Below are positions 41,140 to 47,930 of a DNA stretch of 47,930 bases, in pieces. The notes beneath the pieces are model-generated. The model was not told the origin of the DNA. It did no database searches and saw only the letters and a list, made by a program, of their open reading frames with translations. The stretch comes from Bacteroidales bacterium (lineage in GTDB: Bacteria > Bacteroidota > Bacteroidia > Bacteroidales > NBLH01): positions 1 to 47,930 of the forward strand of contig JAFGWC010000088.1 of assembly GCA_016937695.1 (NCBI GenBank). The letters run 5' to 3'. The translations under genes were made by a program, and so were the position numbers. Every line of letters starts with the position of its first letter. Position 1 is the first letter of the stretch.

Positions 41140-43551
41140 GTGAAGTTTTTTAACTTTAAGAATATTAAACTTTTAGTGTTTATTAATAATATAATTGGAT
41201 TAATTTATTTAATTTCATTAATGATATTATTGTATTTATTTTATTCATCTAATAGTAAATATGATATATATGAACAAAATTTAAATTCTCAGAATTTTGA
41301 ATTGCTAAAACAGAAAGAATTAAATAGAAAATTATTGTGTAAAGATAATTTTAAAAAAGATTTTTATGCTTTAGGAAAAAATAATTTAACTCAGGATTTA
41401 GATTTAAGCTTAAAAAAATCTTTTATAATTATAGATAATCTAAGAAAAAGTGATATTTCTAATAATTTATTGTTACAAAAAAAAAATGATTTATTACTTC
41501 TTGATTATAAACATCTGCAAAAGCAATTTGAGTTATATTTTGATTATACAAGGCAATTAGGAAGTACCGAATATGGAATTTATAATAAACTTATTAATTC
41601 GTCTTTAGAATTGCAGAAAAGATTAAATCTACTTAATAAAAATGATGAAATAGTTTTGCTTTTCAATCAAACTAGAAGTATGCAAGCTTTATTTCATTTT
41701 AGTTTTGATAAATCATCATATAATTTTTTACAAAAACAAAACAACATAATTGAAAATTTAATAAAAAAAAGAGATTATAATAACAACTATAATTATTATA
41801 GAATAAATGATTCTTTTAAAGAATATAAATCTGTTTTTAATCTATTTTCAAGAAAAAAAATGCAAATTGGTTTTAATAACGATTTTGGATTAGTAAATAA
41901 AATAAATAATACTTTTATTATTGTTGAAAATAGATTAAATGAGTCGTCGGAGATTATTTACTTGAACAAATATCGTAATGTTATTATTTATTTCATTGCT
42001 TTTGCTTTGCTTTCATTTGTTTTTTTGATTATCAGCTATTTTTTTAGTAGAAAATTTTATTTGAAACATATCTTATTTATTAATGAAACATTAAAAATAA
42101 TTGAAAATATTGATAAAGGAATTTTATTTGAAAATAATGAACTTAATATTCCTTTCGAATTTAGAAATATTATAGATTCTTTAAATGGATTTTCAAAAAA
42201 ACTTTTAAAAACAGCAAAAATATTATTGGCTTTGCCTGACAGGAAAATAAATATTGAAATTACTGATAGTGAGAGAGTTCAATTTTTAAACGATTCTCTT
42301 TTAAAAATATGGAAAAATTTTGAACTAAATGATAATGATTTAGAAACTGAAAAACAAGGTAGATTTATTAGCGATTGGGTTAAAACAGGATTAGAGAAGT
42401 TTACAGGCATTTTAAGAAAAGAGTTTGATGATGTGAATCTTCTATCTAAGGAATTGTTAAATAATTTGATAGAGCATCTAAATATAGCAGTTGGAGCAAT
42501 ATATTTAAAAAAAGAGATTGAAAAATCGTTTGAACTCGAATTAGTGTCAAGTTTTGCATTTGGGAAAGAAAAACTTATTAAAAAGAAAATTGAAGCTGGT
42601 GAAGGAATAATTGGAACTGCAGCTGTTGAAAAAAACACTTTAAATATTACCAATGTTCCGGCTAATTATTTTAAAGTAAGTTCTGGTTTTGGAAATGCAA
42701 TGCCAAGAAATGTTTTAATTATTCCTGTTATATTTGAAAATGAAATATTTGGTATTATTGAACTTGCTTCGTTTAAAATAATTCAAAATTACGAATTAGA
42801 ATTTATTGAAGAATTAGCTAAAGCTTTTGCTGCTACATTGTCTGCCAATAAAGCACATGAAAATATTAAACAAAAATATAAAGAAACTACAATTAAAAAC
42901 AATCTGTTAGAAAATGAAAAATCTAAGCTTCAAAATAATATTAGTGATTTAAGTAAAGATTTTGAAGAGTTGAATTTTAAAAACTTTGATTACGAGATTG
43001 TTAAGAGAAGTATTGATAGTTACACAATAATATTTGACATTAATATTGAAGGATATGTTCTTTCGGTTAATAATCAGTTTTATAAAGTATTTAAAACTCT
43101 TCCTGAAAATATTAAAAATATAAATTATTTCGATTATTTATATAAATCGGAAAAAATAGAAGAAATTGATATAGATAAATTTTGGAACGAAATTAAAATT
43201 GGTATATCAAAAAAACTAACTCATAAAATAAATGTTTTAGGAGAAAATTTCTGGCTATATGATGATTTTATTCCAATAAAAAATAATGAAGGTATAGTTT
43301 ATAAAGTAAAAGTTGTATCAAGAAATATAACTGATTATAAAGAGCTTGAAAAGAATATTGAAAAAGCTAAATTAACAATCCAAGAGCTTGATTTAAACAA
43401 TGAAAACAATATTATTATAATAGATAATTTGAAATTAAAATTAAAAAATAGTAATAATGCATTGGAAGAAATCTATGCAAAAAATACTGAAAAAGAAGCC
43501 CAATTAAATAAAGAAATTGAAGAGCTCAGAAATAAATTAGCTCAAAAATAG
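41140..43551 (+). CDS. Membrane GAF/PAS sensor-like protein without an output domain
   Basis: An 803-residue protein starting at GTG. TM1 (about 11-34, FINNIIGLIYLISLMILLYL) and TM2 (about 281-304, IIYFIAFALLSFVFLIISYF) bound a helical extracytoplasmic sensor region of about 245 residues. A helical linker leads to a GAF domain (about 430-580: LNIAVGAIYLKKEIEKS, GEGIIGTAAVEKNTLNI, PRNVLIIPVIFENEIFGI). Coiled coil follows, then a PAS domain (about 620-745, IFDINIEGYVLSVNNQFYKV ... VVSRNITDYKELE), then coiled coil to the end. There is no kinase, cyclase, phosphatase or methyl-accepting domain. It may regulate through protein contacts, or scaffold other sensors. Confidence 0.8.
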   Translation: MKFFNFKNIKLLVFINNIIGLIYLISLMILLYLFYSSNSKYDIYEQNLNSQNFELLKQKELNRKLLCKDNFKKDFYALGKNNLTQDLDLSLKKSFIIIDNLRKSDISNNLLLQKKNDLLLLDYKHLQKQFELYFDYTRQLGSTEYGIYNKLINSSLELQKRLNLLNKNDEIVLLFNQTRSMQALFHFSFDKSSYNFLQKQNNIIENLIKKRDYNNNYNYYRINDSFKEYKSVFNLFSRKKMQIGFNNDFGLVNKINNTFIIVENRLNESSEIIYLNKYRNVIIYFIAFALLSFVFLIISYFFSRKFYLKHILFINETLKIIENIDKGILFENNELNIPFEFRNIIDSLNGFSKKLLKTAKILLALPDRKINIEITDSERVQFLNDSLLKIWKNFELNDNDLETEKQGRFISDWVKTGLEKFTGILRKEFDDVNLLSKELLNNLIEHLNIAVGAIYLKKEIEKSFELELVSSFAFGKEKLIKKKIEAGEGIIGTAAVEKNTLNITNVPANYFKVSSGFGNAMPRNVLIIPVIFENEIFGIIELASFKIIQNYELEFIEELAKAFAATLSANKAHENIKQKYKETTIKNNLLENEKSKLQNNISDLSKDFEELNFKNFDYEIVKRSIDSYTIIFDINIEGYVLSVNNQFYKVFKTLPENIKNINYFDYLYKSEKIEEIDIDKFWNEIKIGISKKLTHKINVLGENFWLYDDFIPIKNNEGIVYKVKVVSRNITDYKELEKNIEKAKLTIQELDLNNENNIIIIDNLKLKLKNSNNALEEIYAKNTEKEAQLNKEIEELRNKLAQK

Positions 43552-44406: not shown

Positions 44407-46362
44407 TTATCTTATTATCCAGTCTTGCCATGTATCTCTGATTGCTATACTTACATTTGCTTGAGGTACTTGTTCCATACCTTCTAATTTTGCTTTTTCT
44501 GTAACATTATCTTTTACAGAATTGGAAAGTTTATAATAATCAATATTTCCATTTGTTTCATTTAAAAGTTTAAGAAAATAGTAAGTAAACAAACCATGTC
44601 TTTTTTCTTTGTAATAATTGGCTGTATATTTTTCGCTAACTGCATTAAAAACAACAGTGTTTCCAGATATAACTTCTTTCCTAGGATTTATTTTTTTTGC
44701 TGATGGGCCTCTTAAGCCCATAATTCTTCCACCATTATTAAATGAGGCATCAAAAATGACCAAACTTTTGCTAGAACGACTTTCCCATATTTTTTTATAT
44801 AAAAATTCTAATGAAATTGCATCACCCAGTTTTTCTGGAGGAATATCAATAGGCATTATATAAGGCGCATTAGTTATAGTATCTGATAATCCTTGACCGG
44901 CATAATAAAATATTAATTCAGATTTATTTTTAATTTTACCAATTTGGTCAGATAAAGTAAGAATGCTTTCATAAATTTCTTTTTTTGTGCCATCAAGTAT
45001 CATTATTATATTTTCTTCTTTAACGCCAAGTATGTTCAAAGCATATTTCTTAAAAACCAAAGCATCGTTTCTTGCATAAGGAACATTGAAATTTTTACTT
45101 AGCCCTGTTATTTCATTTGCATATCCTTCATTTCCAATTATTAGCGCATATTTGTTATTTTGTTTATTATTTAATGCTTTAGGATTGTCAATATCAGAAT
45201 TTAATTCACTTTCAAAAACTGTTTCTCTATATTTAAATTTTTGAGTAGGAACAACTATATTAAAAGGTTTTACAGGATTATTTTTATCTGCACTTATACT
45301 AATTTTGAATTTTACTTCATCTGATAAAAGATCTTTATTTGCTTTAATTGGTATTTTAACTATTCTGCTTGAATTAACAGGAATTCGGTTAATTAAAACT
45401 TTATTTGGAAGTTCAATATTATCTATCGAGTCCAAAGATTCAATTTGAGCATAAAAATCTACTGCAGCTGCAGGACCGTAATTAAATAATTCAAATTCAA
45501 CGAAACCTTTTTCAAATGCATCTAAATTAAAGTTTTCATCAAGATCAGCATATTTTTCTGAATTTTCTAATACTTGTAAATTTGTTAGTCTTGTATTAAC
45601 AAAGGTTTTACTGCTTAGGGCAGATGCAATTTTAAGGCTTGGATTATTTGGGGTTTCTTTTATTTGATAATTTTTTAATCTGTTTCTTTTAATTTGCCTT
45701 GTGCGTTTTGTTAGGCCAATATAATCTGCAATCCAAACTGCACCTGCAGCTGCAATAAATACATAAGAAAGATTTTTAGACATTACTGCCTTGTCAAAAT
45801 ACGTGTTTTTGTCTGTTATAGTGCTAGAATTTAGATAGTTACTGTAGTTCGAAAATGAGTTGTAATACATTCCAACAGAAGCTCCAACTAATGAATATCC
45901 AACTAGTCCATATATCCAATAAGGTTTTTTTTGTCTTATTTGATAATCACCCCAACCAGGATATACTGTAGAAAGAACAAATGGATTGTCAAGATAAAAC
46001 CTGTTTTCAACCGTTGCAGATATTTTTATTTTTATTGAATCTACAATTTCAATTTCATCATTGAAAATATCCCAAATTACAACTTTGTTTTCTCCGCCTT
46101 CAATTGATTTATTAACATCACCTTTCCATGTTTTTGCAAATATTGTATCATTTTTAGAATCAAATACATCAATCCATATTCTTATTTTATCATTTGATTT
46201 TGAATTGTTTATGTTATATTTTATAATTAAATTTCCATTATTATATTTAATATCATTAATTTCTAATTTAATGTGTGACTTAAATTGGCTAACAGAAATA
46301 TTGTAAAATAAGATATTTATAATCGATAATATAATATATTTTTTAATGTTCTTTTTCGACAT
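44407..46362 (-). CDS. Exported caspase-fold protein lacking both catalytic residues
   Basis: The ATG at 46362 is chosen over the TTG at 46368, giving 651 residues. A signal peptide (about 1-26, ends SVSQ) is followed by a beta-sandwich-like region, two TM-like helices (about 145-165 and 195-215), and a beta-rich middle (about 250-385). The C14/CHAT-type caspase fold begins at KYALIIGNEGYAN (about 400). The catalytic His motif, normally YYAGHG, reads FYYAGQGLSD (Gln490). The Cys motif, normally DACFSG, reads FDASFNNGGR (Ser540). Both members of the dyad are therefore replaced, and the protein is predicted to be a non-peptidase, perhaps a binding or scaffold form. It sits 17 bases downstream of a lipoprotein gene. 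Confidence 0.85.
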   Translation of the reverse strand: MSKKNIKKYIILSIINILFYNISVSQFKSHIKLEINDIKYNNGNLIIKYNINNSKSNDKIRIWIDVFDSKNDTIFAKTWKGDVNKSIEGGENKVVIWDIFNDEIEIVDSIKIKISATVENRFYLDNPFVLSTVYPGWGDYQIRQKKPYWIYGLVGYSLVGASVGMYYNSFSNYSNYLNSSTITDKNTYFDKAVMSKNLSYVFIAAAGAVWIADYIGLTKRTRQIKRNRLKNYQIKETPNNPSLKIASALSSKTFVNTRLTNLQVLENSEKYADLDENFNLDAFEKGFVEFELFNYGPAAAVDFYAQIESLDSIDNIELPNKVLINRIPVNSSRIVKIPIKANKDLLSDEVKFKISISADKNNPVKPFNIVVPTQKFKYRETVFESELNSDIDNPKALNNKQNNKYALIIGNEGYANEITGLSKNFNVPYARNDALVFKKYALNILGVKEENIIMILDGTKKEIYESILTLSDQIGKIKNKSELIFYYAGQGLSDTITNAPYIMPIDIPPEKLGDAISLEFLYKKIWESRSSKSLVIFDASFNNGGRIMGLRGPSAKKINPRKEVISGNTVVFNAVSEKYTANYYKEKRHGLFTYYFLKLLNETNGNIDYYKLSNSVKDNVTEKAKLEGMEQVPQANVSIAIRDTWQDWIIR

Positions 46363-46379: not shown

Positions 46380-47366
46380 TTAAGGGTTTATGATAAAACT
46401 TTTTACTTCGCCATAATAAACTTTTGAACCATCTATTGCATAGGCTCTTGTATAATATGGTATGTCAGGTAATAATCCTGTTAATTCACTTGTAAATGAT
46501 ATTAACTGATTTACTGAACCTAATGATGTTTTTGATACTCTTTCATCAGAAATATTAGGGTAAGAAGTTGTTGCCGACCAGCAATGTCCATGATCTTGAA
46601 TTGTACTAGCTCCTAAACTTATTATACTACCGTAAGCTGTAGCAGAAGAATTATCATTAATCGCAACAATTCCTGTAGTCACACTGATTTCTGAATCAAA
46701 AGTTATTGTATTAGAGTAAATTATTCTTCCTTCTGATTTTAAATAAGCTCTAATATAATAATGCCCTAGATTTAAGTTTACTATTTTACTCGTAAAAGTA
46801 TTGTCATTTATTAATGGCCCATAAGAGCTAACATTACTTTCAAATGTAGGATTCTCATGTGTTGCCCAGCAATGGCCGTGATCTGTAAAATTGAGAGAGC
46901 CTACTCCTTCCACTGTTGATGTAATATTGATTTTTGATTCATTTATTCTTTCATATTCATATGTCCAAAAGTTCAAGTCTTCAGCCGAAACTTTAAAGGT
47001 TAAGATATCGCCATAAACATAATCTTTACCATCAAAGATATAACTTCTTATATAGTGCGTTGTATCTGCAATTATATTATATAAAACGCTTGTAAATTCG
47101 CCTTTTTCATTTATTTGCCCTAAATCTGTTTTATTGTCTTCAATTGAAGGCTCGTGCCCAATTGACCAACAATGTCCATGATTTATGATGTTTTTTGAGC
47201 CTATATCAAGAATAGTTCCTTTTGCGATTACGCTTGTTTTATTAATTTCTATTTCACCTGTTTGAGTATCCATTACTCTTACTAAATCAAATTTTTCACA
47301 CGAATTAAATATTAACATTATCGTTGAAATAGAAACTAATAAATATATTTTAAAATGATTTATCAT
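46380..47366 (-). CDS. Lipoprotein with three GHCW repeats
   Basis: The ATG at 47366 is preferred to the TTG at 47387 because it directly precedes a lipoprotein signal (MINHFKIYLLVSISTIMLIF, lipobox FNSC). About 328 residues. Three related repeats of about 90 residues follow, each with an NHGHCWS or DHGHCWA/S core, a Fn3-like F-T-S strand, and a Y-x-R-[AS]-Y strand before a Y-x-x-x-x-x-F close. Bacteroidetes have many such surface proteins with Fn3-like 'GHCW' modules; a ligand is not known. It leads a two-gene unit with the pseudo-caspase. Confidence 0.75.
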   Translation of the reverse strand: MINHFKIYLLVSISTIMLIFNSCEKFDLVRVMDTQTGEIEINKTSVIAKGTILDIGSKNIINHGHCWSIGHEPSIEDNKTDLGQINEKGEFTSVLYNIIADTTHYIRSYIFDGKDYVYGDILTFKVSAEDLNFWTYEYERINESKINITSTVEGVGSLNFTDHGHCWATHENPTFESNVSSYGPLINDNTFTSKIVNLNLGHYYIRAYLKSEGRIIYSNTITFDSEISVTTGIVAINDNSSATAYGSIISLGASTIQDHGHCWSATTSYPNISDERVSKTSLGSVNQLISFTSELTGLLPDIPYYTRAYAIDGSKVYYGEVKSFIINP

Positions 47367-47430: not shown

Positions 47431-47930
47431 TTAATCAAGTCTTTTCCAAATATAAGTCAATAAATCTGTATCATACAAATAACAATATATGTGATGATCT
47501 GTTCCAATATAAATATCACCTTCGCTTGGCGAAATTGGTTCTGAAGTTGGCGTAAGATGTAAAATATCGTTGATATTTACTGTACCATCTATTGTTGCGC
47601 CATTGTGTATTGTTGTTGTGCCACTAATGTCAATATCGCCGTTTATATCAGCATTTACATTTACACTAAAGTCAGCTCCTAAATTTAAAATATCTGTATC
47701 ACTTGATATTCCAATGTCAAATCCAGAGAATTGTATTGTTTCAATTCCAACAAACCCACTGGTTGAATTTATAGTTAAAGATGTTGCTCCTGAATGTGTT
47801 ATTGATTGTATATTATTCGATAAAGTAATATTATCACTTGCAGAAAGGGAAGTAAAAGCACCTGAATTAGCAGTATTGTTCCCAATAGCTTCAGGTTCAG
47901 ACCAATCGATATAAGCAGGTTCAATATCCG
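47431..47930 (-). CDS. Fibre-like repetitive protein, C-terminal part (cut at window edge)
   Basis: A leftward open frame runs from the right edge to a stop at 47431-47433, giving the last 166 codons. It has beta-helix or fibre-like text: EPEAIGNNTANSGAFTSLSA, SDNITLSNNIQSITHSG, SVNVNADINGDIDISGTTTI, and a compact end with GDIYIGTDHHIYCYLYD. The 'IGNNTANSGAFTSLSA' form is common in tail-fibre and surface-fibre proteins. The N terminus is off the window. No prophage genes are visible beside it, so a phage origin is not claimed. Confidence 0.6.
   Translation of the reverse strand, partial: DIEPAYIDWSEPEAIGNNTANSGAFTSLSASDNITLSNNIQSITHSGATSLTINSTSGFVGIETIQFSGFDIGISSDTDILNLGADFSVNVNADINGDIDISGTTTIHNGATIDGTVNINDILHLTPTSEPISPSEGDIYIGTDHHIYCYLYDTDLLTYIWKRLD

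Follow-up and report, generated by a model that had tools for sequence, protein, structure and literature searches.

The locus and the predicted protein

In the window (the whole stretch of 47,930 nucleotides that was analysed), a gene for a caspase-like protein lies on the reverse strand, downstream of a gene for a GHCW-repeat lipoprotein and of the 3' end of a gene for a large exported repeat protein (Table 1). Its reading frame starts with an ATG at 46362 and runs through 651 codons without internal stop. Pfam matched Peptidase_C14 (PF00656) to residues 404–637 with 46.1 bits (E 6e-12, cut-off 21.4).

Table 1. Features of the pseudo-caspase gene and its upstream neighbours, by position in the window
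Feature	Position	Strand	Remarks
Pseudo-caspase gene	44407..46362	-	signal peptide, beta-sandwich, helical hairpin, CARDB-like domain and C14 domain; 651 aa
Signal peptide	46285..46362	-	residues about 1–26; hydrophobic run 6–27, ...ISVSQ/F; from sequence and hydropathy; helix 3–24 in the model
N-module beta-sandwich	46009..46275	-	residues 30–118; from the model; stand-alone in relatives
N-module helical hairpin	45673..45918	-	helices 149–178 and 182–230; likely membrane anchor; from the model
CARDB-like beta-sandwich	45241..45579	-	residues 262–374; one copy, two in relatives
C14 (caspase-fold) domain	44410..45156	-	residues 403–651; from Pfam and the model
Asp433 codon	45064..45066	-	motif RNDA; S1-pocket acid, after PMC6426788; kept in 7/7 orthologues
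Gln490 codon (CAA)	44893..44895	-	motif YYAGQG; in the place of the catalytic His; from alignments
Asp538 codon	44749..44751	-	motif DAS; S1-pocket acid, after PMC6426788; kept in 7/7 orthologues
Ser540 codon (TCA)	44743..44745	-	motif DASFNN; substitutes for the catalytic Cys; 7/7 orthologues have Ser
Asn543 codon	44734..44736	-	in the place of a Gly invariant in about 100 relatives; from alignment
GHCW-repeat lipoprotein gene	46380..47366	-	3 repeats; ends 17 bp upstream of the pseudo-caspase gene; conserved neighbour
Large exported repeat protein gene, 3' end	47431..47928	-	tail-fibre-like; heads the cluster; truncated at the contig end

An AlphaFold2 model of the 651-aa protein, built from a 51-row alignment, had a mean pLDDT of 87.1 and a confident caspase fold over residues 399–651; like the other structure models used here, it is a prediction. 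Residues 1–230 are modelled as the signal peptide, a beta-sandwich and a two-helix hairpin, together referred to as the N-module. Of the two anchor helices, only the second (193–218) passed the hydropathy threshold, the first being moderately hydrophobic. The closest structural match of the C14 model was Arabidopsis metacaspase-4 (6w8s; Z 24.1, rmsd 2.4 over 215 residues), and chain B of 3h11, a caspase-8:c-FLIP-L complex, was also matched (Z 22.5). A profile of the 7-row orthologue alignment found no sequence match among solved structures at E 1. In the CARDB-like domain (45241–45579), five orthologues have Cys at positions 279 and 374, and the window protein has lost both; the pair is possibly a disulfide in these orthologues.

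The signal peptide and the helical hairpin support export of the protein to the envelope, where the earlier note had placed it. The caspases that relatives encode as separate proteins carry their own signal peptide, which further supports this location.

The tail-fibre-like repeat protein is conserved in the genus as the first gene of the cluster. A phage origin was considered for the pseudo-caspase and GHCW genes and rejected, as neither had a PHROGs match and the likeness to tail fibres is confined to the upstream repeat protein. Assignment to a defence system was also rejected: PADLOC gave no match for the window proteins, and one sister matched the generic 'caspase' model only. A membrane protein with GAF and PAS-like domains is encoded on the opposite strand at 41140–43551.

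Catalytic dyad, orthologues and selection

Alignment with the orthologues and about 100 homologues showed that the column of the catalytic His is occupied by Gln490 and that of the catalytic Cys by Ser540. The His-Cys dyad required of an active C14 peptidase is absent from the window protein. Pfam, the alignment and the model thus bore out the earlier proposal of a caspase fold with both catalytic residues replaced. An intact His and Cys elsewhere in the fold, named beforehand as a finding that would contradict a conserved non-enzymatic role, was not found: the 651-aa protein contains no Cys, which rules out an alternative dyad, and its only His residues are at positions 30 and 589, the latter being the His of the HG(L/M)FTY motif common to homologues. 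In the approximately 100 C14 relatives from outside the genus (a few rows being the same contig twice), neither the His-Cys pair nor the Gly at Cys+3 varies. Five highly conserved family columns are switched in the pseudo clade (Cys540Ser, Gly543Asn, Pro493Ala/Ser, Arg554 and Gln418) and 38 are kept. The metacaspase S1 pocket is lined by two acids (PMC6426788), which Asp433 and Asp538 match by motif position rather than by superposition; they may have been kept for structural reasons.

A pseudo-caspase match was present in all seven genomes of the family, which consists of one genus, with 52–64% identity per aligned segment. This genus is known here from metagenome assemblies only, and genomes were sampled rather than exhaustively covered. 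No orthologue of comparable score was detected outside it in 295 order-level and 395 class-level genomes. The Cys column holds Ser in 7/7 orthologues, encoded by TCA, TCT or TCG; these codons differ in the third base while the residue is constant, suggesting that Ser540 is held and the third base drifts. Asn542 and Asn543 are likewise fixed in all seven. The His column, in contrast, varies: four genomes have a His codon (CAT), the window has CAA and two others have CAG, both for Gln, and His-to-Gln needs two changes on the tree. Of the two substitutions described in the earlier note, Cys-to-Ser (together with Gly543Asn) is conserved and His-to-Gln is not. The simplest reading of these columns is that the common ancestor of the genus had already lost its Cys, in one event, and that the His went later and repeatedly.

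For the closest pair of orthologues (G003/G004), dN of the C14 domain was 0.12 against a dS of 1.9; other pairs gave dN of 0.17–0.31 with dS near saturation, the NG86 values of dS being rough. Identity of the C14 domain among orthologues was 61–81%, close to the 67–92% of an intact C14 paralogue in the same genome pairs. From these sequence comparisons, the domain looks maintained by purifying selection rather than decaying, in agreement with the selection for structure suggested earlier. As to stops and drift, which the earlier note had named as contrary signs, one of the seven orthologues is interrupted, in an assembly that is 59% complete (G001; L067:1531-3127): its frame is broken by two stops and most of the middle domain is missing, which could be either real or an assembly fault. 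No other broken copy was seen.

In the C14 tree, which includes the fused forms, the pseudo clade is nested among intact caspases linked to N-modules (93/88). An origin from the separate-gene cassettes was considered; a single clade uniting the pseudo clade with the C14 proteins of these cassettes was marginally rejected by the AU test (p 0.039).

The N-module, its proteases and the GHCW lipoprotein

In relatives, the N-module is encoded by a gene of its own, directly upstream of the gene for a CARDB-C14 caspase with intact dyad and its own signal peptide. The N-module profile (A3) was matched at E 1e-10 in 45 of 247 order-level genomes; in a phylum-wide sample it matched none of 295 genomes at E 1e-20 apart from the window genome. 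Judged by these profile searches, the N-module appears largely restricted to this order. The stand-alone N-module had no Foldseek match among solved structures at E 0.001. The helical hairpin of relatives shows a weak likeness to DUF5683 (PF18935; E 3e-5 to 1e-3), with 19.4 bits for the stand-alone N-module and 24.4 bits for the best fused relative, both below the curated cut-off of 26.7; the window protein gave no match to this family at E 0.1. The beta-sandwich and the protease go beyond what DUF5683 covers.

Strong N-module loci from outside the genus (n=33) were classified by hand, and a fused or nearby protease was found in 28 of the 31 decidable ones. The N-module was fused to a C14 domain in nine loci, including L180, which lacks the catalytic core, whereas the C14 gene lay next to or near the N-module in 14 and two genes away in one. 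Three loci carried a fusion to TPR and a trypsin-like protease (L184, L189 and a shortened form in L193) and one a fusion to TPR and a retropepsin-like protease (L190). Three had no nearby protease, and two were undecidable at contig ends. Every row from outside the genus that had both dyad columns in the C14 alignment of N-module loci showed His-Cys.

In the N-module tree, the pseudo clade (100/100) was grouped with fused Cys, Ser and Asp protease forms by a weak join (76/93). In the C14 tree, clearly separate C14 groups were joined to N-modules. No description of the N-module or of protease swapping was found in the literature searched, most subscription papers lying outside that search.

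Further arrangements were observed around N-module genes. A GHCW lipoprotein gene lies beside three of the four TPR-protease fusions (L184:1104-3356, L189:2875-5211, L193:70-1863 and L190:2061-3899). In the genus of the window, stand-alone N-module genes stand beside a different C14 subfamily (YYAGHGLQ...) at L142, L143, L144, L146, L147 and L148. The wider cassette, located at around 2–12 kb in L068, L070, L073, L074 and L075, also includes a DUF4384-like protein, two exported proteins without assignment and a protein of 885 aa that is weakly similar to SBBP beta-propellers. In L180 (829-2745), an N-module-CARDB-C14 fusion, the absence of the whole catalytic core is either a real deletion or an assembly fault.

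The earlier note had proposed a search for a conserved GHCW-lipoprotein partner in other genomes, and such a gene proved to be a recurrent neighbour. Within the genus, it adjoins the pseudo-caspase gene wherever the contig reaches far enough. At E 1e-30, five GHCW matches were obtained outside the genus, in four genomes, and each lay on the contig of an N-module locus. In loci selected by their caspase, GHCW genes were concentrated at a distance of up to two genes from the module (16/72 against 2/106 genes, p 1.2e-5). In loci selected by the N-module, a GHCW gene lay at most two genes away in 20 of 35; here the enrichment fell short of significance (21/101 against 0/15 genes, p 0.07) because the sample held few distant genes. 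Because repeats of the GHCW type are widespread in Bacteroidota, some of this linkage may be background. The linkage is an association, not proof of contact.

Relation to known systems and proposed role

The window protein shares with bacterial pseudo-orthocaspases (PMC6426788; SyOC, PMC7889975) a p20-type C14 domain with both dyad residues replaced, an acidic S1 pocket that is kept and conservation within a clade. By its sequence, it belongs to this already described group, as a His/Gln-Ser variant. The earlier view of such pseudo-caspases as a poorly described class does not stand: 858 of 9,994 bacterial orthocaspases have been catalogued as pseudo-orthocaspases, 90% of them in Alphaproteobacteria and Cyanobacteria and 10 out of 1078 in Bacteroidetes (PMC6426788), and serine had been reported in 2012 as the commonest replacement of the Cys (PMC3501461). 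Deletion of SyOC in Synechocystis altered survival under oxidative stress (PMC7889975), showing that pseudo-orthocaspases can matter. The known members are mostly Tyr-Ser (the commonest pair, typical but not required), Tyr-Ala, Phe-Ser or Gln-Cys proteins of Alphaproteobacteria and Cyanobacteria, whereas the pair found here is His/Gln-Ser, in Bacteroidales, and the domain is joined in one protein to an envelope anchor and a CARDB-like domain.

The CARDB-C14 caspases encoded next to an N-module gene (L074, L068, L082) resemble the window protein in neighbourhood, in the combination of CARDB-like and C14 domains, in the signal peptide and in the GHCW neighbour. They differ from it in their intact His-Cys, in having two CARDB-like domains and in the anchor being a separate gene. 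The fusions of the N-module to C14 (L182, L187, L188), trypsin-like (L184, L189) and retropepsin-like (L190) proteases share the N-terminal anchor and often the GHCW gene, but their active-site motifs are present and their catalytic types differ.

We consider that the protein has a little better than an even chance of being an envelope-anchored pseudo-orthocaspase that binds rather than cuts. Given the signal peptide and the two-helix anchor, the other domains (beta-sandwich, CARDB-like and C14) would lie in the periplasm. There, the C14 domain could still hold on to a partner or client by a basic (Arg/Lys) segment, without cleaving it. The protein would then be a tethered scaffold, receptor or decoy, belonging to a module that in related families cuts its clients. 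The GHCW lipoprotein would be among the likeliest partners, as perhaps would the tail-fibre-like exported protein encoded upstream. The location, ligand, partner and output in this scheme are inferred from the features described above.

The structural match to the caspase-8:c-FLIP-L complex brings to mind another role, in which the pseudo-caspase would pair with an intact caspase-fold protein of the same cell and switch it on or off. Candidates for such pairing exist: six other C14 genes above the Pfam cut-off, all with AGHG and DAC motifs, are present in the same genome, and an intact exported C14 paralogue occurs in the six genomes compared. However, no intact caspase gene adjoins the pseudo-caspase gene in the genus, and dimerisation of bacterial orthocaspases found no support in this analysis. 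Metacaspases, the best structural match, are usually monomeric, which also counts against pairing. c-FLIP-L itself is a cytosolic death-receptor regulator with DED domains, and its likeness to the window protein is limited to a caspase fold without catalysis. We regard this regulatory role as unlikely. Residual or altered catalysis, with Ser540 (and His490 where present) serving a weak serine hydrolase or transferase, could account for a Ser kept in 7/7 orthologues and a His kept in four; it is nevertheless improbable, since three genomes have Gln instead, after at least two changes on the tree, and all seven have Asn at Cys+3, a position at which relatives invariably have Gly.

If catalysis were simply gone, the C14 domain might be ballast on a working anchor and heading to decay. 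The alternation of Gln and His, the interrupted G001 orthologue with most of its middle domain gone and a C14 identity slightly below that of the intact paralogue are consistent with relaxation, to which we give a low probability: dN is much lower than dS, DASFNN and the pocket acids are invariant, and the gene occurs in 7/7 genomes with no second broken copy. Finally, the C14 domain could be a ligand-free structural spacer or assembly domain, function residing in the N-module and the GHCW lipoprotein. The occurrence of the N-module with three unrelated protease folds does make it the constant element; on the other hand, relatives keep their active-site motifs, indicating that the slot normally holds an enzyme, and the pocket acids are invariant in the pseudo clade. 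A spacer of this kind is very improbable.

The reading of an envelope-anchored protein that binds instead of cutting may be extended, tentatively and at somewhat less than even chances, to the wider module. An undescribed Bacteroidales envelope system would be built from the N-module, the GHCW lipoprotein and a protease that can be exchanged (C14, trypsin-like or retropepsin-like): a platform into which proteases are plugged and in which this genus swapped cutting for binding in the same slot. For bacterial pseudoproteases, the surroundings seldom give a clue to what they do. In this case, a pseudo-caspase present throughout a genus sits in a cluster whose relatives hold the intact enzyme, offering a natural comparison of active and inactive forms. 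One and the same anchor, joined to Cys, Ser and Asp proteases alike, suggests a common job at the envelope, testable in cultured carriers of the cassette.
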